DNA of 64,000 nt from Lindgomyces ingoldianus. Its lineage: Eukaryota > Ascomycota > Dothideomycetes > Pleosporales > Lindgomycetaceae. Location of the stretch: NCBI RefSeq assembly GCF_010093535.1, contig NW_022985171.1, positions 898,516 through 962,515 on the forward strand, written 5' to 3'. Under the pieces are notes generated by a model. The model saw only the letters and a program-made list of their open reading frames with translations, did no database searches and was not told the origin of the DNA. A program made the translations under genes and the position numbers. Positions 6,293-63,706 of this stretch are shown here, piece by piece. The number at the start of each line of letters is the position of its first letter. Position 1 is the stretch's first letter.

Positions 6293-6339
6293 CTAATTAG
6301 TAGTTAATTTAATTAACTATAAATTAGTAAAAGTAATAA

Positions 6340-13925: not shown

Positions 13926-14125
13926 ATCTTTGTCTACTAAAGAGAATTAAAACAAAGAGCAATATAAAAATAATAAGATAAACAAAACTAACAAGCTATT
14001 TAGTATAAAAAAATAGATGTTAAGGATGCCTTTTAGTAAGTAAGTGCTTACTTTATAAATAAACTTTTACTAACACAGCTGTGTAAGCAGAGCGGCGAGG
14101 ACGCTGCTAGGGAGAGGGGGCAGCG

Positions 14126-14718
14126 TGTTACAGTCTACAGTTAGACTAGCGTAACTCTACTAGCAGTGCTCTACAATCTAGCTAGATTAGGACAGAGCTT
14201 ACTTACAGACTAATTAGAGGACACAGAGGCAGCACAGCTGCCTAAAATTATAGAAGAATGCGTTATCTAATAAGAAGATAGGCTGCAAGTTTAGGGAGCT
14301 AGAGAGAGCTTATAAGAGCCCCTTTTAGCAGGCTCCCCTAAGCTCCCGCCAGCTCCCCTTAGCGCTCTAGCACATGTATATAGTTCCTATATTAAACAAC
14401 CTTTAGAAGGTGTGTTTAATATTTAGTTTATTTATTACATAGACTAAGTAGCATTTAGCTTTTTAAAGAGCTGTAATACTATTTATATATCTTACACTAT
14501 ATATACCTCTAACCTTATCTAAAAGGACTGTTTAACCTAGCCTCTCTACTGCTGCATTAAGGGCAAACCACAATCTAGTCACTCTATATTATCCTCTATT
14601 AGCCTAATAGCCTGTACGTAGGACTGTACACCCTACCGGATTGGCCCCTTCTATCCGTCCTATCATCCCCTAGGAATATCATCAGACCTGAGTGCTTCCC
14701 GAAGCAAGGATTGTAACA
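14126..14718 (+). repeat. A 3' LTR (593 bp)
   Basis: The last 90 bp (outer edge, CCGGATTGGCC to GTAACA) are clean, while the same bases at 1140-1230 in the 5' LTR are RIP-mutated. Followed by TSD CTAGT. Confidence 0.95.
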
Positions 14719-14793
14719 CTAGTACAGAGTAAGTAACCTATTTACACTTAGAAAAGTTTTAGTGTATAATATTACTTATAATTTTAAAGTTAT

Positions 14794-15045
14794 TGTTGAA
14801 TAGACTCTCTGCTAGCTAGCACTTGGTGTCAGCAAATGCGTACAAGACAGAGAGGTTTGCACGGTGTAAACATCGCACAGGGGTGTTAGGTAACTAGTGT
14901 TAATTACTTCTTGTTATTTCTATTGTACAAAGAAAAGGGGTTAATATAGTCCTAAACTCTGCGCACAGATCTCTGTGCATAGGGATCTAGGCGCATCTAA
15001 GCCATGTAACTATTAACTAGGCGCCTAAATATTACTATTTAAACA
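14794..15045 (-). repeat. N6 left (3') LTR, 252 bp
   Basis: Starts TGTTGAATAG. The outer 100 bp are clean compared with the inner copy at 20426. Its first 130 bp are the U5-side sequence that reappears in N4. Confidence 0.93.
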
Positions 15046-18000
15046 TTAGTAACTTTTTGTTTTTTCTTTATATAAAACTTGCCTTATTTACACATATAGT
15101 AGATAGGTTGCTGTAGGGCCCTTTTTGCCTATCTTATACAAGCTTAAGTCTGTTAACTAACACTTTAACTCTAATAGTTAGTTAGTTATATAAAATTAGT
15201 TCTTTAAAAGCAAAGTTTAGCGCTTTTTTTATATAGGCATTTATAGAGTTATCTCTTTTATTAATCTACTTAATCTTTATAATCTCTTTTTTTATATAAT
15301 TCTTAAATTAATATAATATTAATTATAAGTTTCTTTTTATTTATTATTCTAAGCTTTATAAGACATTTATATAAAGATCTTAAATCTATGCATAGTATAA
15401 TAGGTACAGAAGGTATTCTAAGCATACATGTAATCTAGTTAATAGTTGTACTTAGTGTAATTACGCAGTTAAATCCTCCTACTATTCTGTACAGCTTACT
15501 AGCTAGGACAGAGCAGGTAACGCGTTTACACTTAAAGAAGTTCTAGTGTATAATATTACTTATAATTTTAAAGTTATATAAGTTTCTAGTTTACTACTTA
15601 GTCTTAAAAATAATAAAAAAGCTAAGCTATAAACTTAAGTCTTTATTATTTATAAATAATCTATTAGTAAAGATAAATAACTTTATATAAAAAAAATTAA
15701 GTAGTACATATAATAATTCTTTATTCTAGTTATTAATTTGCTATTAGATTTATACATTTAATGCCTTAATATTATTGTACAACAGCAACACAACTTAAGC
15801 AGCAGTAGACAGGTTAAATGCTACCTTAGGTTAACATACTGATGCAATATAGGCACCTCGCGCGCGCTGTTTGACGTACTTCTGCGCAGCATCCTCTACC
15901 TTAGACTCTATTATGTGTAGATTTCTAGCTTAACCTTTTTATATAAAAATAATATTATTTTATATAAAGTAGATCTTTTCTTTATTAAATTTAATAGCTT
16001 AATTATGTAATAGTATAGTTTTAGGCTTTGCTTAGAAGTTAGCTTTAAGTAATTTTTTTTCCTCTTTTTATGCAAAATTAGCTGTAATAATACTAAGAGT
16101 ATTATCTATTTACAGTCTTATAATACTAAACACTGTTAAGCCTTTATATGTAATTAATAAGCATAGATTATATAATAAGGTTTTTATAAAAAGTTTATTT
16201 TTATAATAGTTATAGTATGTCTTAAACTAATATAAGCCTAACTCTACTGCGCTGTATAGTAGTTATACAACTCTAAATATTATGTGTAGAGGGAAGCTTT
16301 TACAGAGTTCTCTTAGTAGTTGTGTAAAAAGAGTGTAAATAAGCTTATCTATTAATTATATATATACCTAGGTAATATTACATAGTTTACAGTGCATGTT
16401 GTACAAAGCTATTAGTAATAGGCTAATAGCTAAGATTAACCTCTAACTTATTTTCTAAATTATAGAAAACTATATAAAAATCTTTTTTTTCTCCTTATCT
16501 AAATATTCTACAAACATAAGTTGTAACTTTTTATATAGTTTTATTAATTTCCCTTTAACTTTATATATAAGTTAAAGGTTAAAGATCTGTCCTTTATAAA
16601 TTAATAAATTATATAAGAGTACTTTAAACATGCTACTTATAATTAGACTTTTTATTTCTATATAGTCTAATTCTTTAAATAGTCTTTTAGGTGTTGTAAT
16701 TACACTATCTGCACAGAGCTTAATTACTAGTGTGTAGTCTTCCTTTTTCTTTTAGGTTAAAAATGTTGTAGCCTATAGATTTTTATATAGTCTTTTTTAG
16801 CTTTTTTTAGCTAGCTATAGTTCTAGTTTTAGTTTATATAATAAATCTAATGCTACTTAAGGGGCTGTTTTGTGTAGTCTATTAACTAGGGTTAGTTGCT
16901 TGCGTAGGCAACCTCTCTTTTATGCCTGTAGAGGATCCCTTTGTACTAGGGCTAGTTTATCTAGATCTAGTAATTCTTATGTAGGTTTATTCTTGTTTTT
17001 TATATAATAATATAGTATAACTTATGTGCAGTAGAGTTTTACTAAACTATTCTTTATCTTAATAATAATGTCTAGGGCCTTAATTTTTTTTACTATATAT
17101 AGTTTTATTTATCTCTTTTTCTCTTACTATGTCTTTACTTTAGAACTAAGTAGAAGATTTAGTACTTTATATAAAGTTAAGCTATTTTAAGTATTAATTA
17201 TATAATTAATATTAACTTTTACCCTTTTGCTCTAAAGCATCTTTATTACCTTTTATACAGCATTAGCCTACATAGTAATGTTAGAGGATAGTATAGAATC
17301 TATGTTAATTCTTAGGTACATTTTAAATATAAGTAATGTAGGTATAAGACTATTTAGTTTTACTATATTATTTAGGGCTTTAATAGCTATTTATAACACT
17401 AATTTATTGTTTATATAATTATCTAATTCTGCACAGAGGATATTATATGCACGTTGCAGTAGTGTGTGCGCGCGCTTAATCTTCTCTATAGCCTAATAAG
17501 CTTCTACTAGCATTTATTAATATATTACTTTTATAATCTTTATGCAATTTTAGAAATCTTTAAATGCAAAGTTTATACTAGAGTTATATATAATATAATT
17601 AAGTAAGCCTTAGTATGTGTTAATTTAACACTTATAAAGTGTGTTCTAGGTATCTTGTGTAAACATTAATTTTAAGAAGGTTGCTACTTAAAATAATGTA
17701 TTTATATTAATTATATATAGTATGTTTTAGTTACTAATTTATACAACATTAATTACTATCTTATAGTTAAAGTGTAAGTTGTCTTTAATTATAAACTTAA
17801 ATTTTTATAGTGCTAGGTTATATAGCTAACATATGTAGCAAAACTTTTTAATCTTTTTAAGTATAAAAGGATTAATGTTATATCTAGCGTTTTTAAGCAT
17901 TATATAAAGTTATTTTATACAAAAATAGCTAAATCTTCTATACAGTTATTAAAGTTTACATTTAGTAAAAAAAGACATTAATTTTTTTTTTATATATTAA

Positions 18001-20425
18001 AGAAATAATAACTTTATTTTTATATAACTAAGATAGTATTTCTATTACTTTATATAATTACATTCTGCATGTTGTTAAAGTACGCACCTATTTAGTCTAT
18101 GTCTACTAGAGATAGTAGGAACAGTGTTAGAGTGTCTAGAATGTAATATGTTACATTACTAACTAAGTTAGTAATTTGTACAGTACTAATTAATTTTATT
18201 AATCTTTGTTTTTTAAAGCTAATACTTTTTTTCCTTAGTGTTTAGTCTACTTTTATATAAGGGAATTCTTATAGGTATGCTTTAAGTTATAACTTCTCTA
18301 TAGTAGAGATTCTTACTACGCTAGTATTCTATAGTTTACCTTAGTATACTATACAGTATTAATCTTTAAGGATAAACTGTTCTGCGTATCCTTTAGGTTC
18401 TAGGCTGTAGATGTTCTCTACAGTTGCGCAGTAAAGAAATATAGCATTAGTAAAGTAGTTAATAATTTTCTTACTTTTTTTTTATTTAAGTTATTATTAT
18501 TATGTAACTTCTTTTTTTTTAACTCTAGTTTACTTTTAAACTTTTAAATATACACATTTACTTTTTTACATGTTAGTGTCTTGTTATAGAATTTTTTATA
18601 TAAAGAGATATATTAGTGTTTTGTATAAAATTAATCTATGTAAAGATAATTTATTAACTAATATTTTTTCTTATAATAGACAAAGCATTACTTTAATTAT
18701 GTAAAGGACTATAGTTTAAATAATCCTTTATATCCCCTTAGGCTTCTTCTATGTTGTTAATAGCTATATGTACATAGTAAGCTATATTACTTATTAGTGT
18801 AGTACATATTCTAGAATTTATTTATAAATGTATTATTTTATTAATTAATTATAACCTAAAGTGCTAAATAGAGGTTACTATATAGTGCCTTATATGTAGG
18901 CTTAATTAAGAACATTGCTTATTTAAGTTTAAGTTGCCCTTAGCATGCTTATATAATAGCAGTGTAAAGCAGTATCTTACTTTAAAATTATAGACTAAAA
19001 GCTTTTTATGTAAGAGTAAGTTTATTAATTATAGCTTTAAAAGCTTTATATAAAGTTTTTATAAAGTTTTTTTACTTACTTTATATAAAGCTTATTATTA
19101 TCTAATTTATCTAATACTAGTTATAGTTTATGTTAGTATTAAAGTAATTACTAAGCTGCTTATATAGTAACTTCTATAATTATTCTAGACTAATATTATA
19201 AAGGTAGAACATGTGTACGCGCTCTTTAAAAATATTAGGAAAGATGCTTATATATAATGCCTTAAGAATAGCAAGGTGTTAGTAGAGCTTAATAAATACT
19301 ATAGCCTTATTAGCTAAGATATTATATAGTTACTTTATATAGTTATTTTTCTTTCTCTATGCCTTTTAGAATTATACAACCTTTTTAGGTGTAAGGTTCT
19401 CTGCTGTAATATCTTATATAAGTAGAAGTTAGTATAGATTATACAGTAATTAAATTATATATAGTAAGTACAAGCTTTAGAGAATCTTATGTAGAGCTAT
19501 AGCTACAGAAATATGTAGCTGCCTAGTTATGCTCTTGTACAGTAAGCTATTACAAAGTAGTTGTACTAATTATAGAGAAAGTATTAGGTCTGCGCGTGAT
19601 TTATACAGAGACATCCTCTGTTGCATTAAGACTAGTAATAGTAGTAATAGTTTTATATAATATTCTAGTAAAATAGTAAACATGTGTTCTTCTTTTATAA
19701 GTCTATATAGTGTAGTAGCCTTTATTATGTCCTTTTTAAAGCTAATGCCTTTATTCTGTAGAGTAGTAATTAGTTTTTATAGAAATAGTTAGCTAAAATC
19801 TTTAAAGTGTATAAGCTTCTATTTTATAAAGTTGTCTTAAAAGTTCTTAAGCGTACATATGTTTATTACGCTTAATGTGTAGAGTTTTATAATTAAGTTA
19901 GCTGCGTACAAATTAAGCTTCTTCTTAAGTATATTATTTAATAGTTTAATTTTATTTACTTAATCTTTAATATTTATCTGCTCTGCTAGGGTCTTTGCTA
20001 AGATGCCTATAAAAAGTACATATTAGTTATATGTTAATATGTTATGTTAGCTAGTTATAGATAAAGCTAGCGTTACTTGTTGCTCTATAGTAGTTAATTA
20101 TGTGTTGTTGCGCGCTGTTTTACTTCTTGTTGTACGCTGCCTCTAAACAGCCTTGTGCAAAAAGATAAAACAGACCTTCTAGCGTTAAATAAGCACTACT
20201 ATTTATATAATACCTCTAAATAGTATTATATAGACAGGTTTCTTACTCTTACTTAAGTAACTAAATAGAGATTTACAGCTACTTACATGTAAATTAGACT
20301 TTATCTTTACTCTTACTAATTTATAGTTAAAGTAGTAAGGAAAAAAATTCTTTTTATACATAAACTTTTAAATAAAAAAGTATAAAAAAAGCTTTCTTTT
20401 TTATAGTATTTAAACTACTAATTAG

Positions 20426-20677
20426 TGTTAAATAGACTCTTTACTAGCTAGCACTTAGTGTTAGCAAATGTGTACAAGACAGAGAGGTTTGCACAGTGTA
20501 AACATTACACAGGGGTGTTAGGTAACTAGTGTTAATTGCTTCTTGTTGTTTCTATTGTACAAAGGAAAGGGGTTAATATAGTCCTAAACTCTGCGCACAG
20601 ATCTCTGTGCACAGGGATCTGGGCGCATCCGAGCCACGTGACTATCAACCAGGCGCCCGAATATCACTATTCGGACA
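20426..20677 (-). repeat. N6 right (5') LTR, 252 bp
   Basis: The outer edge (20615-20677, GGGCGCATCCGAGCC to TCGGACA) is clean; the inner partner at 14980-15045 is mutated. An inverted repeat CCGAAT / ATTCGG lies next to the element end. The 62-codon frame at 20607-20795 crosses the LTR boundary and is not a gene. Confidence 0.93.
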
Positions 20678-23697: not shown

Positions 23698-23963
23698 TGT
23701 TAAATAGACTCTCTGCTAGCTAGCACTTAGTGTCAGCAAATGCGTACAAGACAGAGAGGTTTGCACAGTGTAAACATTGCACAGGGGTGTTAGGTAACTA
23801 GTGTTAATTACTTCTTATTTTTCCTCTGTACAGAGGAAAAGGGGGATATCTAGATGTTTGCGCACAGAGGTTCGCGCACAAGCATTATGTGACATAGATA
23901 CGTGATCCTGCTTGTGCGTGATTGCTTGTATCTAGGCCGCAACGCTGCTGCTGTGTACAGACA
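23698..23963 (-). repeat. N4 left (3') LTR, 266 bp, mosaic
   Basis: Up to about 23820 it is colinear with the N6 LTR (14794-14920). From about 23840 it is colinear with the N1/N2/N3 LTR. The switch falls in the short segment TTCCTCTGTACAGAGG that both parents resemble. Confidence 0.9.
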
Positions 23964-25057
23964 CTAGTAACTTTTTTTTTTGTCTAAAAAGTTACCTTTT
24001 ATATGTGTTACCTTTTTTTTGTCTGTGTAAGTTTATCTAATTATATTCTACCTTTACTTTACTTTATTTATTAGGACTTGCTTTAGTAATGCTGTGCGTT
24101 AGAATAAGCTAGTTGCACTATATAAATAGCTTTTTTTTTCTTTATTCTTTACTTTCTAAGCTTTGCTATATAATCCCCTAGCTTTTTTTTTTTTATATAG
24201 TGCTAACAGTAACAGATTCTTATAATAAAAAAAATAAGTGTGTATAATATAAAAAAAAAAAAATAAAGAAAAATAAGCCTTATATAAAGGTGTTATTAGT
24301 TTAGTTAGTTTAAAGCATTTTTATGTATAAAATCTAGCTAGTCTATAGATGCTTCTATTTAGACAGAGAGGTAGTTAGTTAGAACTAATAATTAAAAAGC
24401 TTAGTTTAGTGTTTTCTTTATATATACATCTACTAAGTTATTTTTACTATTAATTTACTTTATTTTAGTAAGTTCTTTTTTTTATATAATTTACAGAGTA
24501 ATATAATGTTAATTATAAGTTACTTTTTACTAGTAGTGCCTAGCTTAATAAAGTAATTATATAAAGACTTTAAATCTATATAAATTACTACTAGAATTAG
24601 TAGTAGTTTAAGTGTTTATATAATTTACTATAAAGTTGTACTAAAAGTAATTACATTATTAAACTCTTTAACTATTTTATATAGTTTACTAGTAAAGACA
24701 CTTTTAGTTACTCTTTTACACTTAGTAGAATTCTAGTATATAATGTTGCCTAGTATTTTAAAGTAGTTGCTTTGCTTTATATAGTTTTTATTACTTAATA
24801 TAATTAAAAATCTTAGCTGTAAGCTAAGGTTTTTATTATTAGTAAATAATCTATTTATAAAAATAAATAGCTTTGCATAATTAAGCTATAATAGTAAAAA
24901 AGTAAGACTATGCTTACTATTATCTATCTACTATTAGATTTATATATTAAGTGTGTTAATATTATTATATAAAGGGTCTGTAGTTTATGCAGTAATAAAC
25001 AGGTTAAATGCTACCTTTAGTTAACACATAAATATAATATATACCTTTTTTACATAT

Positions 25058-25375
25058 TGTTACAATTGTGCACAAGTAAGGTTATAGAGCTTTACAAAGG
25101 TCTAGTTTAATTACTACGTAAGGTATTATAGTAGGTATAAGACGTTATATAAGGAATAAAAAGGTTTAGAAGAAAATTAGTAATTAAATACTTAGCTTAA
25201 AAGTCTAAGCGCTTTAAGTATAAATTAAGCCTATTTTAAGTTTAGTTAGTGTTAAAGCAGTTTATGCTTAAGTTTATGTCTATGTTATGTTATATTTATG
25301 TTAGACATGCACTAATAATACTCTAGTACATGTCTAATATAGTTATGTCTAGGATCTAGAGAGGATACTGTAACA
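25058..25375 (-). repeat. N5 left (3') LTR (318 bp)
   Basis: Pairs with 30403-30720. CpG in ACGCGTC of the right copy reads ACATGTC here. Confidence 0.93.
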
Positions 25376-25479
25376 GTACCCCCCCTCTTATTAGGAAGGA
25401 AATCCTTTACATTAGTAGTTCTAGCATTAGGTTGTTTTTATTAGGGTATAAGTTTAGTTTAGATAAGTATTAGGTGTAA

Positions 25480-28400
25480 AATTAAGTTACTATAGAGTTT
25501 TTTTATAAAGCTTTTACAGGTTCTTATAACAGTTTATTATATCTAGTTTATTTTATAAAGTATTTATAGATATGTTTTTTTTTATTAAACTAGATCTATT
25601 TAATGTCTTTTACAATATATTCTAGTTTGTTATTTATAATAATAAGTTTAAGTAGCAGGTTTAGCTGTCTAGGTAGATAGTTAGATTTAGAGGCTACTTA
25701 GCGCAGCAATAATACATAGAACATAGAGTGTATTTTTATGCTGTTAGGTAGAATTAATTAGTAAGTGTGTAATAAGACTATATAGGCTACTATAAAGGGG
25801 CTAAGGTTTTTCTAATTAAGTTTCTTTAATTATTAGTTTATTTAGATATTTCTAGCGTCTAGCTAGACCTTCTTGCTAGCTGCATACATAGGAGTAAGAG
25901 TTTAAGATTAGTTTACGTACTCTTATTAAAGAGCTTAAGCCTATGTAAGCTTTTTATAAACATATTTAGATATATTTTAGATTTTATTAATAAGTCTATT
26001 TACATTTATTACTTATATAAATTAATAAGTTAGTTAGAGGGTATTTAAAAGTAGTTTAAATTTTATTTAGAAGTAGTATCTATAGTTTACTAAGAATAAA
26101 GATACTTATATTAATTTAGATGTTATGTTATTAGCTTTAAACTATGCTATAGCTAACTATTTTACTTAGTTATTCTACTAGTAGTTTGTGTACACTTATA
26201 AGACTTATTTTATTACAGTGTTTATGTTCTTAGTCTAGCTATTAGTCTCTAGGTAAAAAGCTGTAAATAAATAGAGAATAATTTAGAGCTATTTATAGAG
26301 TTTATTCTAGAAAGCTAAGACAAACTACATACCTCTATCTAATATAATTATGTTAGGCAGGCTATAGTAAACTTATACGTATTAGTAGAATAACTAGGCT
26401 ATATTAAGGGCAGTTATAGAGGAACATAGTATTAAGTGTTAATACTTAGTTAAGTAATTAACAACTACTATAATATTTATATACCTTTTAAATAAAGGTA
26501 AGTTTATAATAAAATTAATTAATATGTCTTTCTAAGCTTATTTAAAGATTAAAAGTAGTTTAAGCAGGCTATTATACTTTTTTTAAAAGGCCTTTACTTT
26601 ACAGCAAGTATAGCAACATAATACGTATTAGCGTACAGTATAGAACATGCAGGGCTAGTAGTACTCTCTCTATAGTAGGTTAAGAGTCTTTTCTCTGCCT
26701 AGGTGTCTTCTAACAGGCAAGTTGTGTATAATTTAGAGTAGTTTAATTCTTAGTTTATTAAAATTAGAAATTACAAGTTAGTTATAGTAATATAGCTTAC
26801 TATTTTAGTTTTTATAGTTAGCTAGTGTTACCTTCTTTAACTAACTAGCGCTATTTTAGAGTAGGTCTAAGGTTTTTTAAATAAATTTATTATTTAAATA
26901 CTTATTAGTAATAATCTAATTAATTATCTAATTTATTTTATTTAAGTTAAGGTCTAAAAATAGCTTAAGTTAAAGTAAAGTTTAGTGTTAAGCCTTTTAC
27001 ACTTTTTTTTAAGTAAGAATGTTTTAGAATTGCCTAGTAAAGGTATCTAGTTTTCCTTTATTTTAACTAAAATAATAAGTAATTTTAAAATTAAAATAAA
27101 ATAAGTATTTAAACTAATAAGCTTATTAGTAGCTAAGTTATTTTATAGTTATAAAGTACTGCAAGTTCTTATAGTTAAATAGGACCTGTATTAGATGCGC
27201 TGCACCTTCTAGTTTAGGTTGCTATTATTTAAAGCAGCATACTATAGCAAGTAATTTCTTATTATAAATCTTATAATTACCTTTTATAGGGCTTATTCTT
27301 TTTAAGAAGTATGTAATAGGCCTAATAGTCCTATCTAGCTTAGTCTAGAAGAGAACTTCTGCTACTACATAGTCTAAGGCATTAGCTTCTACAAGTATTA
27401 GTAGTTTAAAGTTAAAGTAGTAGAGTATTAAGGCTTTAGTAAAGGCTTTTTTTAGCTAGTTAAAAAACTATTAGTAATTTAAGTTAAAGTTAAATTAAAT
27501 TTTTTTCTTAGTAAGTGTAATTATAAAGCTTACTTAGTATAAAAAGTTGTTAATAAATTATTAGTAAAAGTTAGTAAATCTTATAAAAGCTTAAACATCT
27601 TTTATATTTTTTAAGTATTACTAATCTAGCATAGTTTAAACTTTAATAGAGTTTATTTAAATGCTATTTATAAAGATTATATATTCTAAATATGTAACTT
27701 TTAATTAGTAGAACTTACATTTATTTATGTTAAGTTATAGACCTACTTCTTCTATAGCCTTTAGCACTAGGCGTACATGCTGTTTGTGCTCTAAAAGGCT
27801 ATTACTATAAATTAGAATATTATTAATATATATAGTGTAGAACATGTTTAGGTAGGGTTAAAGTAAGTTATTTATAAAATGTTAAAAAGTACTAAGCGCG
27901 TTAGCTAAGCTAAAGGGCATTACTAAGTACTTAAATAGTTTATATTAAGTCTAAAACACTATTAGCTACTTATTACCCTTTGCTATTCTTAGCTTATTAA
28001 AAGTAGTAATAATATCTAACTTTATAAAATACTTTACTTTACTTAGTTAGCTTAGAGTTTTTTATAAAAAAAAAATTAAGTATTAGTTTTTAATAGTAAT
28101 AGTGTTTAGTTTTTAGTAGTTAACGTAGAATTAAAGCTTACCTTTAAGTTTCTTTATAAATAGTATAAGTAACACTACTAGTAAAAAGCTAGCTTAAATA
28201 AAACCTTTTTTTAAGTTCTTATTAAAGTATTTTTAAAGCACTTTTAATTTATTTAGTAACATCTTATATAGTAGCCTATAACTAGGTTGTTTACTAGGCT
28301 TAAAAGTTATCTAGTAATTATATAGATGTTATATTAAAAGCTTATTAGACTTATTTTAGAAAAAGACATATAATAAGTTATAGTAGTTTTAAAAGACTAT

Positions 28401-30390
28401 TATCTTTAGGTTAGTGCATTTTTAAAGAGCTAAAGCTTAGTTTATATTAGAAATTATAACTACATAGATTTTATAATCTAGTTATTAAGCTAGAGTTATA
28501 AATAGAGTAGGTTCTATATAGCAGATGTCTATCTGCTATTTAAGTCCTAGTTTATGTTTAAATTAGGTAAGTAAAAATTCTTTAAAAGCTTTTTTTTCTT
28601 TAGGTTTAAGTAGTTATTAAATTATTTTATATAGCCTATTTTAGTAAAAGGCCTAGCTTATTAGCCTTACTTAGGTAGTTTTTTTTTAGGTTATTAAAAA
28701 GTAAGTCTAGAGACCTTCTATATTAAGTACTACTTAAGTGTTATTTAGGTGTAAGTGTAAGCATATATCTTAGCATTAAAAAAAGTTAAAGTTTAGAACT
28801 TACTTTTAGTAATTAAAGGCAACCTTGTGCTAATACAGCCATAGTTGTTCTAGGATTAGGTTATAACATCTTATGTTTATTATATAGAGCTTAATCTACT
28901 CCTTATAGTGTTAGTAGGTAATTATAATAGTTATAGTACAGAAGATAGAACCTTTTTTAAGTTATTTTTTATTAAATCTAGTTAGGTAAATTATTTAAGT
29001 AAGTAGTGTTAATTAGAGATTTAGTTTATGCGCTAGTTTTTTATTAATGTAACTTATGCTATTTACTTCTAAGTTAATAAAAGCCTGTATTAGAGCTAAT
29101 ATAGTTTTTTATTATAAATATATAGAAATATTAACTTAGTACTTTTAGTTATTAGTAGGGGACTTAGCCTATAAGTTAGCAAAGATCTAGTGTTAAATTA
29201 GTCCTAGAGGGCAACTTAGCCTTAGGACAAGCCTTTTTGCAGGCTCTTACTGCTATAGCTGCGGCTATGTTAAGAGTAGCAAAGAGGATTAAGGCTTAAA
29301 TACAAGTTAGAGCCCTTATAAAAATAAGATTAAAATAGTAAAGATCTTTAATAAGTGCTAGCAGCGCTACTTGCGTAGACTTAAGAAAGAGAAATAGAGC
29401 AGTTTTAGAAGATATAACTATGCTTACTGTACTTAAAGTATTAACTTTTTTTTTTATAATCTTTACACTTTCTAGAACTAACTAGAGCATAATTTAAATT
29501 AATTTTTATTACATTAAAGTCCTTATTTGCAACTACGCTAGTTTAGAGGTGTATTAGGGCTTATACAGGGAGGAACTTTATGTTATTATTATAGGTAGCA
29601 ATTAGGTTTACATACATGTTAAGGTTGTTTAGGAGGGGTTCTTCTACTATAGCGCGTTATAGTTTAGTTAAGAGGGAGTTATATAAAGCTATAATTAGAC
29701 CTATCTTATTTAGGCCTATATTAAATGCAAGTTAGTAGAACTTAGTAAAGTGTAAAGTAAAGCTTTTTTTTTTATTATAAGGTGTTTAAGTAACTTAGGG
29801 CTATTAACTTTTTATTTAAGTTTTTATAAGTTGCTTACAGAAACACTATAAATTAATCTAAGTTAATAATATTTTTATTTATTAGTAAGTTAATTAAGGC
29901 TGTTATGTTATAGTTAAGTTAAAAGTAAGTGTGTAGTAACTAGAAGTGTTTAGAAAAGAATTAGTCTATATTTTCTTTAAGTTTATATTAGAGCTTATGT
30001 AAAAAAAAAAGTAGGTCTTTTTATTTTCTATTAAATAGCAGGGGATTAGAGAGTTAGTTAGATTTTATTACTAAGTTAAAAAGGTTATAAGTTATAGGCA
30101 GCATTAGGCAAAAAAGAGTTAAGCTATCTCTAGACTTCTAAGTAGGCTTTAAGGCTAGTAAGTTCTTAGTTCCTACTACTATAATAAAAGTTAAGGTAGA
30201 AATAGACTACTTAATAATATAAAGCTATTTTTTAAAGTTTTTTTAAAAAGCTTTAAAGCTTATAATGTAGTAGCTTTTTTATAAAGTAAGCGCTTTTTAA
30301 AAGGCTTTTTAGCTTACTTTAATAGCTTAAAGTTATGTAAGTACTAAGCTTATTAGATTAAATTTAGAGGCTATTCTTAGCTAAAGTTTT
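25480..30390 (-). pseudogene. N5 gag-pol relic with chromodomain
   Basis: On the minus strand the RT block near 27815-27840 reads YINN-ILIY (two Asp to Asn changes). Upstream is a FGLAN/APSTF-like segment, degraded, near 27880-27960. Integrase shows a C-x2-C remnant (CYTCCK) near 26600-26615 and a core FIINLPLFKRY segment near 26480-26520. Near 25500-25650 a chromodomain can be followed: EYIV-DI, then FIK with a mutated Trp, then a WEPV-like segment. Its two halves lie in different frames either side of an eight-base A-run on the coding strand (about 25583-25590). The part nearer 30390 should hold gag, but I could not identify motifs there. Not functional. Confidence 0.72.
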
Positions 30391-30402
30391 AACACAACAT
30401 AA

Positions 30403-30720
30403 TGTTATAATTATGCATAAGTAAGGTTATAAAGCTTTACAGAAGTCTAGTTTAATTACTATGTAAGGTATTATAGTAGGTACAAGACATTATGTAAGAA
30501 ATAAAAAGGTTTAAGAGGAAATTAGTAATTAAATACTTAGCTTAAAAGTTTAAACGCTTTAAGTATAAATTAAGCCTGTTTTAGGTTTAGTTAGTGTTAA
30601 GGTAGTTTATGCTTAAGTTTATGTCTGTGTTGTGTTGTGTTTGTGTTAGATGTGCACTAATAATACTCTAGTACGCGTCTAATACAGTTATGTCTAGGAT
30701 CTAGAGAGGATACCGTGACA
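30403..30720 (-). repeat. N5 right (5') LTR (318 bp)
   Basis: The outer edge (30640-30720) keeps TGTGTTG and ACGCGTC that are RIP-mutated in the left copy's inner edge. Confidence 0.93.
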
Positions 30721-33202
30721 CATATTACTTAATATATTATTATGTAGCATTTTTATTTTTTAAGTTAATTATATAAAAGTAGCTTACTTATCTCTTCTAA
30801 GTAAAAACTACTATGTTATGTGTAAGTTTAATTTTTTTACTATTAAACTTAATAAGCTGCTTTTTTACTAAAATAGTTTTACTTTTTATATAAAACTTTG
30901 CTTTTTATAGTTTTTTTTTTTTTTACATAAAATTCTTTATTATAATACTTAAAGTGTTATTTATTTATAGGCTAGTAATACTAAAAGTGTGCTTTTCTTT
31001 ATTAGTAATTAAAAAGTAAGGGTTATATAAAAAGATGTGCATACATAGCTTTTTTTTATAGTAGTTATAATATGTTTTAAACTAATACAGTCCTAATTTA
31101 GCAGCTCTATATAAGAGTTGTATAACCTAGAGTATTGTATTTAGTAGAAAGCTTTAGCGCATTTTCTTTAGTAGCTTTATGTATAGTGTGCGTATAAGCT
31201 TATCTATTAATTAGATGTATACTTATGTAATATTACATAGTTTAAAATGCATTCTGTACATAGCTTTTAAGCTTACTTTTATAGCTAAAAGTAGTCTTTA
31301 GCTTATTCTTTAAATAGTTAGTAACTAAGTAAGAATTTCTCTCTTTTCTTTATCTAAGTAGCTAGTAAACACTAGGTAGAATTTCTTATATAGTTAAGTT
31401 ATTTTACCTTTTACTTTTTATATAAAGTAAAGGTTAAAAATCTAACTTTTATGCTTTATTAAGTTATATACTATAACTTTAAAAGTGCTATTAGTAATTA
31501 AAGTGTTTATTTTTATATAGTTTAATTTCTTAAATAGTTTTTTAGGTGTAGTAATTACACTATCTATATAGAGCTTAATAAATAAAGCCTAATTATTCTT
31601 TTTCTTTTAGGTTAGAAATACCTAGTCTAGACTTTATGCAAGTTTTCTTTGCCTTTTACTTCTCTTAGTATCTATATCTTCCCTTTGCACTAGTGCAGCA
31701 TTGCTATTCTAAGGGGCTTAGTCTATAGTAGGCTCTAGTTCTACCTTTATAACATTCTTATAAGGCTATTCTCTTTTCCTCTTTTTTAGAGAATTCTTTT
31801 ATATAAGAATTAGTTTATTTAGGTTATTTATTATAAGTAGGTTATCTTTCTTTTTTTCTTTATAGTATAGTTTAACCTGTGTATATTAGAGCTTTAGTAG
31901 GCTATTTTTTTTTAATAATAATGTTTTTTTTAATGCTTTTAATTTTATATAGGCTAGTCTAGCCTTTTTTTTTTTATACTATAATCTTTAAGCTAAGGGG
32001 GAGGTTAAGAACTTTATATGTTGTAAAGCTATTATAAGTGTTAATTATATAATTAATGTTTACTTTTATATAGTTCTTTTAAAGTATTTTTATTACCTTT
32101 TATACAGCACTTACTTATATAATAATGTTTAGTAATAGTAAAAAGTCTAGGTTAATTCTTAAGTATGCTCTAAAGACTAGCAGCGTAGGTACTAGACTGT
32201 GTAGGCTAGCTATGTTATTTAGAGCTTTAACTGCTATCTATAGGATAGCTTTATTATCTGTATAGTTACCTAGCTTAGTCTTTAGAATGTTAAACACTTA
32301 TTAAAAAAGTGTGTGCGCGCGCTTAACTTTTTTAACTGCCTAATGTGCTTCTATAAGCATCTGCTTACATATAGCTTTTATAATCTTTATATAAGCTTAA
32401 AAATTCTTTAAAGTAAAGTTTATATTAGAGTTATATATAATGTAGTCTAGAGGTTCTTAATAAGTGTTAATCTAGCATTTGCATAGTGCATCCTAGGTAT
32501 CTTGTGCAAACATAGATTTTAGGAATGTAGTAGCCTAAAATAATATGTCTGTATTAATAACATATAAAACATTTTTATTATTAATTTATATAACATTAAT
32601 AATAACTTTATAGTTAAAGTAAGTGTTATTTTTAATTATAAACTTAAATCTTTATAGAGGCTTAGTTATATAATTAGTAGAAGTAGTAGAACTTCTTAAT
32701 CTCTTCTAGCACTACAGCATTAATATTGTAGCTAGCGCTAGTTAGCATCTTCTAAAGTCTTTTTATGCAAAGGTGTCTAAATTAGTAGTAGAGGCAGTAG
32801 AGTTTTAATTTAGTAAAGAAAGACATAAATTTTTTTTTACTAATATTAAAAAAAAGTGTTTTTATTTTTATATAATAAGAATAGTAGTTTTGTCTTTATA
32901 TATAATAACATTTAAAACATTATTAAAGTATGCTCTAAGTTAGTTAGCATCTGCTAGTAATAGTAGAAATAGTGTTAGAGTCTCTAAAATGTAATATGTT
33001 ATGTTACTAACTAAGTTAGTAATTTATATAGTACTAATTAATTTTATTAATTCTTATTTTTTAAAGCTAATACTTTTCTTTCTTAGTGTCTAGTCTACTT
33101 TTATATAAGAGAATTTTTATAAGTATGCTTTAAGTTATAACTTCCTTATAGTAAAGATTCTTACTACGCTAGTATCCTATAGTTTACTTTAGTATACTAT
33201 AT

Positions 33203-33482
33203 TGTCCGTACGCAGCAGCAGCGTCGCGGCCTGGATACGAACGATCGCGCACGAGCAGGATCACGTATCTATGTCACATGATGCTTGTGCGCGAACCTCT
33301 GTGCGCAAACATCTAGATATCCCCCTTTTCCTCTATACAGAGGAAAGACAAGAGCAATAAAACTAGAAACATGTTGCCCTTACCTTACCTACCTTGTACA
33401 CTGTGCATACTATACACTACTTTTACTCTTACTACTTAAGTGCTTATACTATAAGCAGCTAGCTATTAGAGCTTATTTAACA
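33203..33482 (+). repeat. N2 5' LTR (280 bp)
   Basis: The outer 120 bp are nearly free of RIP, with the same clean sequence as the N1 outer edge. The 70-codon frame at 33285-33497 is an LTR accident. Confidence 0.94.
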
Positions 33483-33899
33483 CTAATTAGTAGTTAATTT
33501 AATTAACTATAAATTAGTAAAAGTAATAATAAAGTACCTACACTTTATAAAGTACTTTATTTTATTACTTATCTTTTAGGAAAAGTAATAGTAGAGTACT
33601 TACACCTTATAAAGTACTTTATTTAGTTACTTATTTTTTAGAATAGTAGATTAATCCTTTACATTATACAGTAAGCTCTGCTACTGTACAAAGTAAAAAG
33701 GAGATAGTGTAAGACACACACTAAAGCTACTAAAGCTGCACAACCTAGCAGCTAGATAATAGCACATTAATTCTTTATATTGCACAGCAAGCTCTGCTAC
33801 TGTACAAAGTAAGAAGGAGATAGTGTAAGGCGTACACTAAAGCTATTAAAGCTGCACAACCTAGCAGCTAGACAACAGCAGTACCTATGTAATTTACTA

Positions 33900-36800
33900 A
33901 AAAAGTAATTAACTATACTATTATAATAAAATCTTATTAGCAACTAACAACTTTATGTAATAATAAGAAGAATAAAGAATAATTCTTATTATATAAATAA
34001 CTTGCAAAGGACATAGGGATATTAGAGGCAACACTACAGAATAAGACTAGCCTAGAGTACTAGAATAATAAAATTAACATGTTAAAGGCTTTAATAAGCC
34101 TGCAGACTTAATTATACACAGGTTACATAATTACTAATCTACACATAACAACTTAGAAGGGCGCTACTCTTCTAAGTGCGTACATAGAGGATTTTAAAAG
34201 ATAGACACTATAAGACTTTTTAGCACTTAGCTGCGCGTTTAAAAGGGAGCTTATATAAGTGCTAGAGGACAAGGGAATTACACTACAGCTAGGCACTAAA
34301 GGTACCTAAGCCTAGAAGCTGTATAATATAGCATAAGAGAAGGTAATTGCACTAAAAAGGCTTTATACATAACCTTTATTACTATATAAGGCTCTGCACA
34401 GAAGCAGACTAAACATAATGCTGCTATTAACACTAAATGTACTAGCATTACCTGCTTCTACACTTTAGCTAGCACTACACTAATCACTGTACAAATAATA
34501 CATGCCACCCTACCTAACGCCTGCTCCACACCCTTAATTGTACACACTACTGCCTGCAGTAGTGTATGCACTACTAATACTACCTGCACAATCTATACCA
34601 CATTACAGCCTGTATAAACTTCCACTCTAAAGGGAAACTGCTAAAGAAAAACTTCTAGCAGATAAAATTATATAATTTTAAAAAGCATAAAAAAAAATAA
34701 TAACTACATAAGTTAACTATATAACATTTTTATAAATAAAATAAGAATCTTTATTAATCTATGTTAATAGCTAGATATTTAGAAAACTTAGTACATAGAC
34801 ATCTTTCTAGATATTCTAAAAGGTTAGGCAAATATGTACTATATGCACAACATAGGCCCTAGATATAACTAGAAGCATTTATATAACACTTTAAGTAGTT
34901 ACTTTAACACTAATGTAAACTATAGCTAGTACTAGACAAACTAGACAATAATAACTTTTACATAATACTAATAAAAGAACTCTAATAAGAGTTTATATAA
35001 AGTCCTTAAAATAATAATTAATAAGCTTATGCTTATATAAAGAGCACTAGAAATAGAATTTTAAGAAAATGTTCTACTGCACACTGCTATTATATAAGCC
35101 TGTTAAGGACAACTAAAACTAGAACATGCTATGTTTACTATTAAGCCTTTATGCAAAGCCCTATTTAGTGACCTATAGGCATTACTTTAAGTTACTATAG
35201 ACTAAAAGGTAAACTAATACCTCTAGAAACTGCCTAATATATACTACACAGACTACTAATATAACTCTGCATAATAAGAGTCTGCATAACAAGAAGGAAG
35301 CTTCTTTCTGTGTAGAAGAGAACAACATAGAAGACCTCTATCTAGGTTTAGGCTATAATTTAGAGATAACTGCACGCAAATAAAAAAGTGCTTTGTCTGC
35401 TATAAGAAAGAATGTTAGTTATTAAACTACTCTTATAATAACTATATGTAAGCAAAGAACTAGTACATTGCCTTATATAAAGATTTTTATAATAAGACCT
35501 TATTATATAAAGCTATTACCTTATACATCTAAAACTTTAAAGGTTACCCTAAAAAAGAAGATAATTTGCATAATGTAGAAAAAATAAAATAGAAAGGTAA
35601 AAATGCTAAAAAGCTGTTAACTACCTTACCTCTGCTACTTATCTACACTGTGCAACAGGAGAGGACATCTATAGCATTAAACCTAAGAAATATGCTAAGC
35701 AGTTTATCTTTAACAACTAATACTGTACAGTATACTAAGGCAAACTATAAAACATAGGCGCAGTAAAAATCTCTACTGTTAGCAAGTCTTAACTTAAGGC
35801 GTACATATAAGAGAACTTATGTACAGAAATTAATTAGACACCTAGCTAAATAGATATTAGCTTTAAAAGCTAGACACTAAAGGGATTAATTAGTACTGTA
35901 TAAATCTAGAACCTAATTAGTTTAGTTACATACTATATTCTAGAGACTCTAACACTATTTCTGCTATTACTAGCAGATGCTAACTAACTTAGGGCATACT
36001 TTAACAACATTTTAAATATTATTGTACATAAAGATAAAACTACTATACTTATTATATAAAAATAAAGACACTTTTTTTTTAATGTTAGTAAGAAAGAATT
36101 TATGTTTTTCTTTACTAAATTAGAACTTTACTGCCTCTACTACTAATTTAGACACTTCTGCATAAAGAGACTCTAGAAGATGCTAACTAGCGCTAGCCAC
36201 AACATTAATGCTGCAGTGCTAGAAGAGATTAAGAAGTTCTGCTACTTTTGCTAATTATATAACTAGGCCCTATAAAAATTTAAGTTTATAATTAAAGATA
36301 ACACCTACTTTAACTATAAAGTTATTATTAATGTTATATAAATTAATAATAAGGATGTTTTATATGTTATTAATATAAACACATTATTTTAGGCTGCTAC
36401 ATTTCTAAAATCTATGTCTACACAAGATACCTAGGATGCACTATGTAAATACTAGATTAACACTTATTAAGAACCTCTAGACTATATTGTGCATAACTCT
36501 AGTATAAACTTTGCTTTAGAGAATTTTTAAGCTTATGCAAAGATTATAAAAGCTACATGTAGGCAGATGCCTATAGAAGCATATTAGGTAGTTAGAAAGG
36601 TTAAGCGTGTGCACACACCTCTCTAATAAGTGTTTAACATCCTAAAGACTAAGCTAGGTAACTGTATAGATAATAAGGCTATTCTGTAGATAGCAGTTAA
36701 GGCTCTAAATAACATAGCTAGCCTACACAGTCTAGTACCTATGCTGCTAGTCTTTAGGGCATACCTAAGAATTAACCTAGACTTTTTACTATTACTAGAT

Positions 36801-38960
36801 ATTATTACATAAGCAAGCGCTATATAAAAGGTAATAAAGATACTTTAAAAAAACTATATAAAAGTAAACATTAATTATATAATTAACACTTATAATAGCC
36901 CTATAATGTATAAAGTTCTTAACCTCCCCCTTAGCTTAGAGATTATAGCATAGAGAGAGAAAAAAGGCTAGACTAGCCTATATAAGATTAAGAGCATTAA
37001 AAGAAGAGATGTTATTATTAAAAAAGAAAATAGCCTACTAAAGCTCTAATGTACACAGGTTAAACTGTACTATAAAAAAAAAAAAAAGACAACCTACTTA
37101 TAATAAATAACTTAGATAAACTAATCCCTATATAAAGGGATTTTTTAAAGAAAAGGAAGAGAGAACAGCTTTATAAGAATGTTATAAAGGTAGAACTAAA
37201 GCCTACTATAGACTAAGCCCTTTAGGATAGCAATGCCGCACTAGTGCAAAGAGAAGATATAGATACTAGAAGAAGTAAAAGGTAAAAGAAACCTGCACAA
37301 AGTCTAGACTAGGTATTTCTAACCTAGAAGAAAAAGGATAATTAAGCTTTATCTATTAAGCTTTATATAGATAGTGTAATTACTACACCTAAAGAACTAT
37401 TTAAAGAATTAGACTATATAAAAATAGACACTTTAATTACTAACAGCACTTTTAAAGTTATAGTGTATAACTTAATAAGGTATAAAGGTTAGATTTTTAA
37501 CTTCTGCTTTATATAAAAAGTAAAAAGTAAAATAACTTAACTATATAAAAAATCCTACCTAGTGTTTACTAGCTACTTAGATAAAAAGAAGGAAGAAATT
37601 CTTACTTAGTTACTAACTATCTAGAGGATAAGCTAGAGACTACTTCTAGCTATAAAAGTAAGCCTAAAAGCTATATATAGAATGCATTTTAAACTATGTA
37701 ATATTATATAAGTATACATCTAATTAATAGATAAGCTTATGCGCACGCTGTACATAAAGCTACTAAAGAAGATGCGCTAGAGCTTTCTACTAAATATAAT
37801 ACTCTAGGTTGTATAACTTTTGTATAAAGCTACTAAATTAGGACTGTATTAGTTTAAGATATACTATAACTACTATAAAGAAAAGCTGCGCATGCATATC
37901 TTTTTATATAACCTCTACTTTTTAATTACTAATAAAGAAGAGCACACTTTTAGTATTACTAGCTTATAAATAAATAACACTTTAAGCATTATAACAAAAA
38001 ATTTTACATAAAGAGAAAAAAAGAAACTATAAAAAGTAAAGTTTTACATAAAAAGTAAGACTATCTTAGTAAAGAAGCAGCCTATTAAGTTTAACAGTAA
38101 AAGAATTAAGCTTACACATAATATAGTAGTTCTTACTTAGAAGAGATAAGTAAGCTACCTTTATATAATTAACTTAGAGAATAAGGATGCTGCACAACAA
38201 TATGTTAAGTAATGTGCAAGAGGGGCATACATTACATCTATGTGTTAACTAAAGGCAGCATTTAACCTATTTATTACTGCATAAACTACAGACTCTTTGC
38301 ATAACAACATTAACACACTTAACGCATAAATCTAATAGTAGATAGATAATAGTAAGCATAGTCTTACCTTTTTACTATTATAGCTTAATTATGTAAAGCT
38401 GTTTATTTTTATAAATAGATTATTTACTAACAATAAGAACTTTAGCTTATAGCTAGAATTCTTAATTATATTAAGTAATAAAAACTATATAAAGTAAAGT
38501 AACTACTTTAAAATACTAGGCAACATTATACACTAAAATTCTACTAAGTGTAAAAGAGTAACTAAGAGTGTTCTTACTAGTAAACTATATAGAATAGTTA
38601 GAAAGTTTAATAATATAATTACACTTAGTATAACTCTATAGTAAATTATATAAACACTTAAACTACTACTAATTCTAGTAGTAATCTACATAAATTTAAA
38701 GTTTCTGTATAATTACTTTATTAAGCTAGGCACTACTAGTAAAAAGTAACTTATAATTAACATTATGTTACTCTATAAATTATATAAGAAGAGGGAAATT
38801 GCTAAAATAAAGTAGATTAATAGTAAAAACAACTTAGTAAATGCATGTATAAAGAAAACACTAAACTAGGCTTTTTAATTATTAGTCCTAACTAACTGCC
38901 TCTCTGTCTAGATAGAAGCATCTGTAGACTAGCTAGATCCTGTGCGCAAAGATGCCTTAG
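33900..38960 (+). pseudogene. N2 copia gag-pol relic
   Basis: Gag carries a knuckle at 35389-35430 that still reads K-C-F-V-C-Y-K-K-E-C followed by a mutated Trp and N-Y. Integrase C-terminal LVPTLLVF-like sequence lies near 36735-36760. RT and RNase H follow to about 38960, with the NNLV tail near 38829. Compared with N1 several CpA and CpG sites are still intact. Every frame has many TAA and TAG codons, so no protein can be made. Confidence 0.8.
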
Positions 38961-39309
38961 ACTAACTAGACTAACAACGCCTTTATATAAGGCTTATTTT
39001 CCTTTATTTTGTTTTTTTTTATATTATACACACTTATTTTTTTTATTATAAGGATCTGTTACTGTTAGCACTATATAAAAAAAGAAAAGAGCTAGGGGAT
39101 TATATAGTAAAGCTTAAAAAGTAAAGAATAAAGAAAAAAAAAGCTATTTACATAGCATAACTAGCCTATTCTAACGCACAGCATTACTAAGGCAAGTCCT
39201 AATAAATAGAGTAGAGTAAAGGCAGAATGTAATTAGATAGACCTACATAGACAGAAGGGAGGTAACACGTACAGAAGGCAACTTTTTAGACAAAAAGAAA
39301 AGTTGCTAG

Positions 39310-39589
39310 TGTCTGTACGCAGCAGCAGCGTCGCAGCCTAGATACAAACAATTGCGCATAAGCAGGATCACATATCTATGTTACATAATGCTTGTGCGCG
39401 AACCTCTGTACGCGAACATTTAGATATCCCCCTTTTCCTCTGTATAAAGGAAAGATAAGAGCAATAGAACTAGAAATATGTTGCCCTTACCTTACCTACC
39501 TTATACGCTGTGCACACTGTACACTACTCTTACTCTTGCTACTTAAGTGCTTATACTATAAGCAGCTAGCTGTCAGAGCCTATTTAACA
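39310..39589 (+). repeat. N2 3' LTR (280 bp)
   Basis: Pairs with 33203-33482. The 83-codon frame at 39392-39643 runs out of the LTR into N4 and is not a gene. Confidence 0.94.
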
Positions 39590-41656
39590 TATATAGTATT
39601 AATTTTTAAGAATAAACTGTTCTACATATCCTTTAGGTTCTAGGCTGTAGATGTCCTTTACAGTTACATAGTAAAGAAATGTAGTATTAGTAAAGTAGTT
39701 AATAATCTTCTTACTTTTTTTATTATTTAAGTTATTATTATTATGTAACTTTTTTTTTTTACTTTAGTTTACTTTTAAACTTTTAAATGTATATATTTAC
39801 TTTTTTATATGTTAGTGTCTTGTTATAGAATTTTTTATATAAAGAGATATATTAGCGTTTTGCATAAAATTAATTTATGTAAGAATAATTTATTAACTAA
39901 CATTTTTTTTATAATAAATAAAGCATTACTTTAATTATATAAAGGACTATAGTTTAAATAATTCTTTATATCCTCTTAGGCTTCTTCTATATTGTTAATA
40001 GCTATATATACATAGTAAGCTATATTGCTTATTAGTGTAGTACACATTTTAGAATTTATTTATAAATGTATTATTTTATTAATTAATTATAACCTAAAGT
40101 GCTAAATAAAGGTTACTGTATAGTGCTTTATATATAAGCTTAATTAAAAACATTACTTATTTAAGTTTAAGTTGCCCTTAGCATACTTATATAATAGTAG
40201 TATAAAGCAGTATCTTGCTTTAAAATTATAGACTAAAAGCTTTTTATATAAGAGTAAGTTTATTAATTATAGCTTTAAAAGCTTTATATAAAGTTTTTAT
40301 AAAGTTTTTTTACTTACTTTATATAAAGCTTATTATTATTTAATTTATCTAATACTAGTTATAGTTTATATTAGTATTAAAGTAATTACTAAGCTGCTTA
40401 TATAGTAACTTTTATAATTATTTTAGACTAATATTATAAAGGTAGAACATATGTGCGCGCTTTTTAAAAATATTAGGAAAAATGCTTATATATAATGCTT
40501 TAGAAATAGTAAGGCATTAGTAAAGCTTAATAAATACTATAGCCTTATTAGCTAGAATATTATATAGTTGCCTTATATAGTTATTTTTTTTTATACTTTT
40601 TAGAATTATATAACCTTCTTAGGTGTAAGGTTCTCTACTGTAATATCTTATATAAGTAGAAGTTAGTATAGATTGTATAGTAATTAAATTATATGCAGTA
40701 GGTACAAGCTTTAAGAAATCTTATGTAGAGCTGTAGCTATAGGAACATGTAGCTGCCTAGTTATACTTTTATATAGTAAGCTATTATAAAGTAGTTATAC
40801 TAATTATAAAGAAAGTATTAGGTCTATAAGTAATTTATATAAAGATATTCTTTATTATGTTAAGACTAGTAATAGTAGTAATAGTTTTATATAATGCTTT
40901 AGTAAGATAGTAAACATGTGTTTTTTTATAAGTCTATATAGTGTAGTAGCCTTTATTATGTTCTTTTTAAAGCTAATGCTCTTATTTTATAAAGTAGTAA
41001 TTAGTTTTTATAGAAATAGTTAGCTAAGATCTCTAAAGTATATAAGCTTTTACTTTATAAAGTTATTTTAAAAGTTTTTAAGTGTACATATATCTATTAC
41101 ACTTAATGTATAAAGTTTTATAATTAAGTTAGCTATATATAAATTAAGCTTCTTTTTAAGTGTGTTATTTAATAATTTAATTTTATTTACTTAATTTTTA
41201 ATATTTATCTGCTTTACTAAAGTCTTTACTAAAATGCCTATAAAAAGTATATATTAGTTATACATTAATATGTTATGTTAGCTAGTTATAGATAGAGCTA
41301 GCGTTGCTTATTACTTTATAGTAGTTAATTATGTGTTATTGCGCACTGTCTTACTTTTTATTGTACGCTGCCTCTAAACAGCCTTGTGTAAAAAGATAAA
41401 ACAAACCTTCTAGTGTTAAACAAGCACTACTATTTATATAATACCTTTAAATAGTATTGTATAGACAAGTTTCTTACTTTTACTTAAGTAACTAAATAAA
41501 GATTTATAGCTACTTATATATAAATTAGACTCTATCTTTACTTTTACTAATTTATAGTTAAAGTAGTAAAGAAAAGGATTCTTTTTATACATAAACTTTT
41601 AAATAAAAAGGTATAAAAAAAGCTTTCTTTTTTATAGTATTTAAACTACTAATTAG

Positions 41657-41922
41657 TGTTAAATAGACTTTCTACTAGCTAGCACTTAGTGTTAGCAAAT
41701 GCGTACAAGATAGAGAGGTTTGCATAGTGTAAACATTGCATAGAGGTGTTAGGTAACTAGTGTTAATTGCTTCTTGTTTTTCCTCTGTACAGAGGAAAAG
41801 GGGGATATCTAGATGTTCGCGCACAGAGGTTCGCGCACAAGCATCATGTGACATAGATACGTGATCCTGCTCGTGCGTGATTGCTCGTATCCAGGCCGCG
41901 ACGCTGCTGCTGCGTACGGACA
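41657..41922 (-). repeat. N4 right (5') LTR, 266 bp, mosaic
   Basis: Same mosaic as the left copy, with the switch at about 41777-41799. The outer edge (41810-41922) is almost RIP-free. The 82-codon minus-strand frame at 41675-41923 is an accident of that clean stretch. Confidence 0.92.
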
Positions 41923-63701: not shown

Positions 63702-63706
63702 CTCCG

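Follow-up and report, generated by a model that had tools for sequence, protein, structure and literature searches.

An amplified copia family of Lindgomyces ingoldianus with hybrid long terminal repeats descends from a recombinant of two GalEa-like lineages

The stretch of Lindgomyces ingoldianus DNA considered here, the window, comprises 64,000 nucleotides of contig NW_022985171.1 (C10:898516-962515), in a genome of 68.4 Mb and 99 contigs. Its subject is N4, a member of a recombinant copia retrotransposon family that occupies 23698-41922 on the minus strand, nested in the element N3 and itself interrupted by the element N2 and by another element at ~25058-30720. The two long terminal repeats (LTRs) of N4 are hybrids of 266 bp, the 5′ LTR at 41657-41922 and the 3′ LTR at 23698-23963. 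Between them the internal region falls into four pieces, likewise on the minus strand: two derived from the N6 lineage, at 39590-41656 and 33004-33202, on the two sides of N2, and two derived from the N1 lineage, at 30721-32981 and 23964-25057, on the two sides of the ~25058-30720 element. The parent types are represented in the window by N1 (6013-12395, plus strand), with 280-bp LTRs, and by N6 (14794-20677, minus strand), with 252-bp LTRs and the target duplication ATAAC. N2 (33203-39589, plus strand, duplication TATAT) and N3 (21280-43579, minus strand, duplication ATCTA) are N1-type elements, the latter with a 3.1-kb deletion of its own. The nesting order, from the outermost element to the innermost, is N7, N3, N4 and N2, so N1-type insertions occurred both before and after the insertion of the window N4.

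The repeats in the window diverge chiefly by transitions, which is the pattern expected from repeat-induced point mutation (RIP, a C-to-T hypermutation), and N4-type copies are heavily affected, with a GC content of 0.22-0.31. Between the 5′ and 3′ LTRs of 18 uninterrupted N4-type copies there are 8-29 transitions and 0-1 transversions. Because RIP yields transitions only, the elements were compared by purine/pyrimidine (RY) state or by transversions, with 800 RIP-proof RY diagnostic columns in which the 5′ half corresponds to columns 330-2800 and the 3′ half to columns 3450-6700. N4 was compared piecewise because of its two interruptions.

Compared in this manner, N4 is confirmed to descend from a recombinant of the N6 and N1 lineages: U5, the leader and the 5′ half are N6-like, and the remainder up to U3 is N1-like. 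A first-pass annotation, made from the letters of the window, had claimed just such a recombinant of two copia lineages, with U3 and U5 from different parents and sharp switches, and both the diagnostic columns and the transversions bear it out. In the 5′ half of the window N4, 331 + 15 diagnostic sites are N6-type and none is N1-type; in the 3′ half, 220 + 119 are N1-type and none is N6-type. One stray site lies between the tallied ranges, at 32880, N6-like within the N1-like part. The same pattern is found in the 18 uninterrupted copies, each of which has at most one off-pattern site among the 346 of the 5′ half and at most one among the 341 of the 3′ half (a few columns are missing from copies L024 and L038). 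Five tabulated N4-type copies have 2-4 transversions in ~2270 positions to N6 in the 5′ half, as against 370-372 in ~2174 to N1, and in the 3′ half 4-8 in ~3295 to N1, as against 399-402 in ~3003 to N6.

Pairwise identity plots against N1 and N6, a check proposed with that annotation, show the two halves following different parents. In sliding windows of 200 columns, the 5′ half of the uninterrupted copy L016 has an identity of 0.86-0.97 to N6 and its 3′ half one of 0.87-0.94 to N1, and transversions to the respective parent never exceed 0.7%; N1 and N6 differ from each other by 5-28% transversions per 200-column window. Agreement between the phylogenies of the two halves, named at the outset as an argument against recombination, was not seen. 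On the contrary, approximately unbiased (AU) tests with RY coding show a conflict in both directions: the tree of the 3′ half is rejected by the data of the 5′ half (p=1.7e-90), and that of the 5′ half by the data of the 3′ half (p=8.7e-43). The parents themselves are only ~69% identical, and their transversions are similar in both halves, 370-374 in ~2174 and 399-403 in ~3004 positions. N7 is N6-type in both halves and branches outside N6 and N4 in the 5′ half, and its position indicates that the N6 organisation is older than N4. As to N1, that it is a parent and not a product is argued by parsimony alone.

Both LTRs of N4 are the same hybrid: the parent that supplied the 3′ part (N1) also supplied U3, and the one that supplied the 5′ part (N6) also supplied U5. 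The last N1-type and the first N6-type LTR diagnostic columns are ~15 nt apart, an interval that is identical in 24 of 24 5′ LTRs and in 32 of 32 3′ LTRs covering it. Judged by eye from eight printed N4-type copies and the window copy, the switch narrows to 8 bp, AACAAGAA, at LTR positions 145-152, that is, 41771-41778 in the 5′ LTR and 23812-23819 in the 3′ LTR (minus strand), with N1-type sequence upstream and N6-type sequence downstream. These 8 bp lie just 3′, in element sense, of a perfect 22-bp palindrome, TTTTCCTCTGTACAGAGGAAAA, which adjoins the switch at 41778-41799 in the 5′ LTR and at 23819-23840 in the 3′ LTR (minus strand). The positions first given for the LTR switch, 23,818-23,840 and 41,777-41,799, thus indicated the right region and marked the palindrome; the switch is refined to the interval beside it. 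The longest RY-identical run of the parental LTRs, 18 columns, directly precedes the 8-bp interval, and the most alike 30-column stretch of the LTRs is at the switch (25/29), bar one that spans the LTR end and the hairpin site described below (27/30).

The N4-type hybrid has amplified to dozens of copies. A genome search with the LTR gave 41 matches, 40 of them near full query length at 95-100% identity (the best 40 of 1291 candidates), some of which are the two LTRs of one element. A search with the pol junction gave 44, of which 40 cover 498-503 of 503 bases at 91-100% (the best 40 of 544 candidates). With the N6 leader as query, six of 41 matches end at query base 419-423, which is the LTR switch, as expected of N4-type copies. 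With 40 candidates scored per genome search, the copy numbers are lower bounds. The search for further copies with 266-bp LTRs, suggested with the first description of N4, thus established that the recombinant did amplify, and 50 copies could be read across the pol switch. The view of N4 as a single element is therefore rejected: the hybrid is a family of copies.

The internal switch had been placed at about 32,960-33,000. This was close for the window copy, whose diagnostic sites put it at 32982-33003 (minus strand), N6-like at 33003 and beyond and N1-like from 32982. A single switch point does not hold across the family, in which four haplotypes occur within ~90 bp. Haplotype A, that of the window copy, is found in 34 of the 50 copies (window copy included), B in 8, B′ in 3 and C in 5; half of these copies (L053-L077) were picked by likeness to the window copy, which biases the count towards A, and the other 25 comprise 15 A, 6 B, 1 B′ and 3 C. 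Haplotypes B, B′ and C change over at 32934-32916, C with one extra N1-like site, and A is N1-like from 32982 on. The place that matches the switch of B, B′ and C, 32916-32934 (minus strand), is N1-like in the window copy. At site 32880 the N1 state is found in six of six N1-type copies (N1, N2, L022, L041, L048 and L049) and in B′; haplotypes A, B and C have the alternative state. Stretches of 17-23 nt in which the parents are RY-identical contain or adjoin all these switch points.

Outside the A patch, the indels and a homopolymer zone, no RY difference is common to at least two N4-type copies, which points to one founder. The simplest order of the haplotypes would be B′ as founder, then B, C and A, with A arising by a short N1-like patch. 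The founder's switch would thus be the one at 32934-32916, and that of the window copy is probably secondary. Haplotype A may instead go back to a separate founding in which the LTR switched at the same place; since the 32880 marker is common to A, B and C and absent from all six N1-type copies, a later patch is likelier than an independent founder.

Exchange seems to have continued after the family was founded. Among 15 N6-type pieces fetched at the patch site, 11 are N6-like, two are unaligned, one consists of N only, and one, L087 (C3:1966541-1966791), has the haplotype A patch together with the derived state at 32880. The element to which L087 belongs (C3:1963350-1969242) has N6-type LTR matches at both ends and a 3′ half that is N6-like across all 2691 query bases. 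It is a probable back-recombinant of N4-A with N6, N6-like again within a few bases of the end of the fetched piece. Four strong N6-type 3′ halves, at C43:92318, C7:1143438, C17:828944 and C3:2454553 (91-92% identity), have no switch-spanning match among the best 40 of that comparison; these may have arisen by patch or reciprocal recombination, or may be copies with an interruption. Exactly where the internal switch region lies, another N6-type copy, L050, has unlike sequence and ~350 additional bases.

By their sequence, the N1, N6 and N4 types appear to fit the fungal GalEa copia elements in LTR size and ends, target duplications and hairpin site. The parts of Donnart et al. 2017 (PMC5445492) drawn on here describe fungal GalEa elements as 5.4-7.0 kb long, with LTRs that begin and end TGT...CA and measure 138-311 bp in most families, a 5-bp target duplication, and no primer-binding site (PBS); CHSeq1 stands right after the LTR, and CHSeq2 is complementary to it save for one A/A mismatch. 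All LTRs, of 266 bp in the N4 type, 280 bp in N1 and 252 bp in N6, have the ends TGT...CA. Uninterrupted N4-type copies are 6033-6203 bp long, N6 is ~5.9 kb and N1 6.4 kb. An exact 5-bp duplication flanks 17 of the 18 uninterrupted N4-type copies; the window N4 has one of only 4 bp, CCCT. In N4 the putative CHSeq1, CTAATTAGT, forms the first bases past the 5′ LTR (41648-41656, minus strand), and the putative CHSeq2, ATAAATTAG, lies at 41547-41555 (minus strand). In eight of eight leaders (three N1-, two N6- and three N4-type) CTAATTAGT abuts the LTR and, a single A/A mismatch aside, pairs with ATAAATTAG. PBS-less GalEa character was judged from this hairpin site, without a search for tRNA complementarity. 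The spacing between CHSeq1 and CHSeq2 is 17 nt in the three N1-type leaders, inside the published 12-41, and 92 nt in the five N6- and N4-type leaders, unlike the published elements (PMC5445492). The extra sequence within the 92-nt spacing (e.g., 41547-41656) forms a stem of its own. The GalEa motifs QTDD and CQPEA, of the reverse transcriptase and RNase H, are matched only in a RIP-tolerant reading, 276 nt apart in L032, L016 and N6 and 274 nt apart in N1, a search that gave other hits too; the same kind of search found no match to KSRLVI in L032 or N1. Recombination between GalEa lineages is not treated in the passages of PMC5445492 drawn on here, where "recombin" occurs only in the background and in reference titles.

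How did the hybrid arise? We consider that the family was founded by recombination between co-existing GalEa-type N6 and N1 lineages in a fungus with RIP, most likely by template switching between co-packaged RNAs, and we hold this reading with reasonable, if not full, confidence. In conventional reverse transcription, U5 is taken from the 5′ end of the RNA and U3 from its 3′ end. It follows that a recombinant that is N6 at the 5′ side and N1 at the 3′ side acquires LTRs composed of U3 from N1 and U5 from N6, joined in or at the terminal repeat R, and a fair prediction is that R would contain or abut LTR positions ~145-152. In the proposed pathway, RNAs of the two lineages would be packaged together; strong-stop DNA (R-U5) would be made on N6 RNA and moved to R at the 3′ end of N1 RNA; reverse transcriptase would then copy U3 and the 3′ half of N1 and switch to N6 RNA in the short common stretch at ~32934-32916. 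The product would have amplified to dozens of copies, and later exchanges with N1- and N6-type relatives would have shifted or patched the internal junction nearby, as in haplotype A and L087. Two strand transfers between RNAs are involved here. One template switch within pol, which the first-pass annotation took to predict the hybrid LTRs, does not do so by itself, as an inter-RNA first strand transfer is needed as well.

An alternative explanation, less probable and still to be taken seriously, is that DNA, not RNA, recombined: ectopic crossing-over, or gene conversion, within the internal regions of integrated N6- and N1-type elements would leave an element with unlike LTRs, and one cycle of retrotransposition would make both of them hybrid. 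A chromosomal crossover in pol of this kind, which gives an element with an N6 5′ LTR and an N1 3′ LTR, is expected after that cycle to yield the same final structure, including an LTR switch in R. Cross-packaging, which had been claimed as an implication of the hybrid, is consequently not implied; since the hybrid LTR arises by either route, it locates R approximately and proves neither. Copies are moreover numerous and nested, and ectopic recombination of fungal retroelements has been reported, to judge from the title of PMC5004834. On the other side, no element with unlike parental LTRs was present among those fetched, though few could reveal one. The RNA route is favoured because the parents are ~69% identical, the exchanges fall in RY-identical runs of only 17-23 nt, and short patches recur. 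RY-identical runs of that length are, in our judgement, little substrate for homologous recombination.

Beside the equivalence of the two routes at the LTR, several observations weigh against template switching as we propose it. With 83 RY-identical runs of 14 nt or longer in the internal region, neither homology nor plain template switching explains why the internal exchanges are clustered within ~90 bp; possible reasons are RNA structure or a need to keep integrase to RNase H together. Read by eye through the broken frame of L032, the window switch (33003-32982) lies between a protease-like DTGA (element base 2365) and an integrase-like CxxC (element base 2854), and the stretch of the founder's switch may correspond to the protease/integrase boundary. 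Pfam profiles matched none of three RIPped pieces and confirmed neither of the two motifs. Finally, neither the window nor any of ten further loci contains the reciprocal LTR hybrid, no genome-wide search for it having been made; in a search with the N1 leader, the 40 long matches listed start at query base 1-5 and thus show no sign of a reciprocal form, which is weak evidence against one.

A further possibility, that the N4 type is ancestral and that N1 and N6 are each recombinants with one half swapped with an unknown lineage, appears very improbable. A near-zero transversion distance alone gives no direction, and to that extent it agrees with the data; however, it requires two separate exchanges to coincide both in the internal region and in the LTR, and it has against it the nearly equal N1-N6 distance in both halves and the position of N7, N6-type throughout, outside N6 and N4 in the 5′ half. 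That convergent RIP, uneven rates or misassembly mimic a mosaic is hardly credible, for although the copies are nested and heavily RIPped, the signal resides in transversions and is repeated across loci of many contigs, exact 5-bp duplications of their own flank 17 of the 18 uninterrupted copies, and an identical assembly error would be needed at dozens of places.

How reverse transcription starts without a PBS in fungal GalEa is left open in the parts of PMC5445492 drawn on here, which raise dimer initiation sites in connection with the hairpin site, noting differences; in Ty1, kissing loops mediate the dimerisation of the RNA, a step in which palindromes have been suggested to assist (PMC5454406, in part). 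We put forward, tentatively, that the hairpin site could be both a dimer-linking signal and the start of reverse transcription, that PBS-less elements would still copy their U5 at the 5′ terminus of the RNA and their U3 at its 3′ terminus, and that R would lie at LTR positions ~145-152. The palindromic hairpin site of both lineages, whose leaders are otherwise unlike, and the repeated exchange near one place would fit a dimer link. A recombinant family with closely mapped switches is a natural record of GalEa reverse transcription, telling from which RNA end each part of the LTR is taken, and the hybrid LTR predicts the place of R to within a few bases. The family also means that a hybrid of two lineages was able to amplify. 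For this genome, transversions are the proper yardstick of LTR ages, and RY coding recovers sharp recombination points even in RIP-ruined copies.

Other features were seen along the way. The outer edges of the elements are less RIPped: when the two LTRs of a copy are compared, the initial 75 nt have the higher GC content in the 5′ LTR, where they face outward, and the final 75 nt have it in the 3′ LTR, where these do so; both hold in 18 of 18 uninterrupted N4-type copies. The element inside N4 at ~25058-30720 has LTRs of ~318 bp with ends TGTT...ACA and the duplication CATAT. The ~3.1 kb that N3 lacks relative to N1 were considered as part of the N4 insertion, an explanation that was rejected; they represent a deletion between two copies of AACACYTTAAG, and at the deletion joint (23697-23650 / 41923 onward) this common sequence lies ~36 bp from the N4 insertion. 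The N1 leader (~6453-6690) has a tandem self-repeat ~116 bp further on (secondary matches, query 304-425). Two related elements with ~600-bp end repeats lie at 638-14721, containing N1, and at ~56000-63703. An open frame at 54174-55028 (minus strand) matches 2EXR weakly, at a level below the cut-off, and has 14 relatives, among them records of Kalmusia, Didymosphaeria and Paraconiothyrium. Three of the 14 carry names of fungal species, one of which, Didymosphaeria variabile, belongs to the Pleosporales, which suggests a host in that order. Elsewhere in the genome, at a contig end, L052 (C7:2046000-2050861) holds a copia polyprotein frame that stays open for 1588 aa and matches RVT_2 and SH3_retrovirus; used as a tblastn query, this polyprotein gave no match to the listed N-type elements.

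Retroelement recombinants whose LTRs are joined in R are already known. Among the titles and beginnings of abstracts listed in literature searches, none concerned recombination between GalEa lineages, which is not proof of absence. Jordan and McDonald are said to have described Ty hybrids in 1998, likewise mosaic copia elements. Ty1 belongs to another clade and uses a tRNA primer, and the Saccharomyces Ty system is not known to undergo RIP. In the part of PMC7055915 drawn on here, Ty1/Ty1′ of Saccharomyces is, like N4, a mosaic copia between subfamilies of one genome in which gag and pol have different histories; unlike N4, its exchange is described in gag and pol and not as LTR joins. For Onsen of Arabidopsis, most LTR recombination products are ascribed to a first template switch in R, as stated in the part of PMC5668417 drawn on here, and hybrid LTRs together with junctions in the coding part are common to Onsen and N4. 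The Onsen products, however, are fresh insertions that join close members of one family, whereas N4 joins lineages that are ~69% identical, is old and has amplified.

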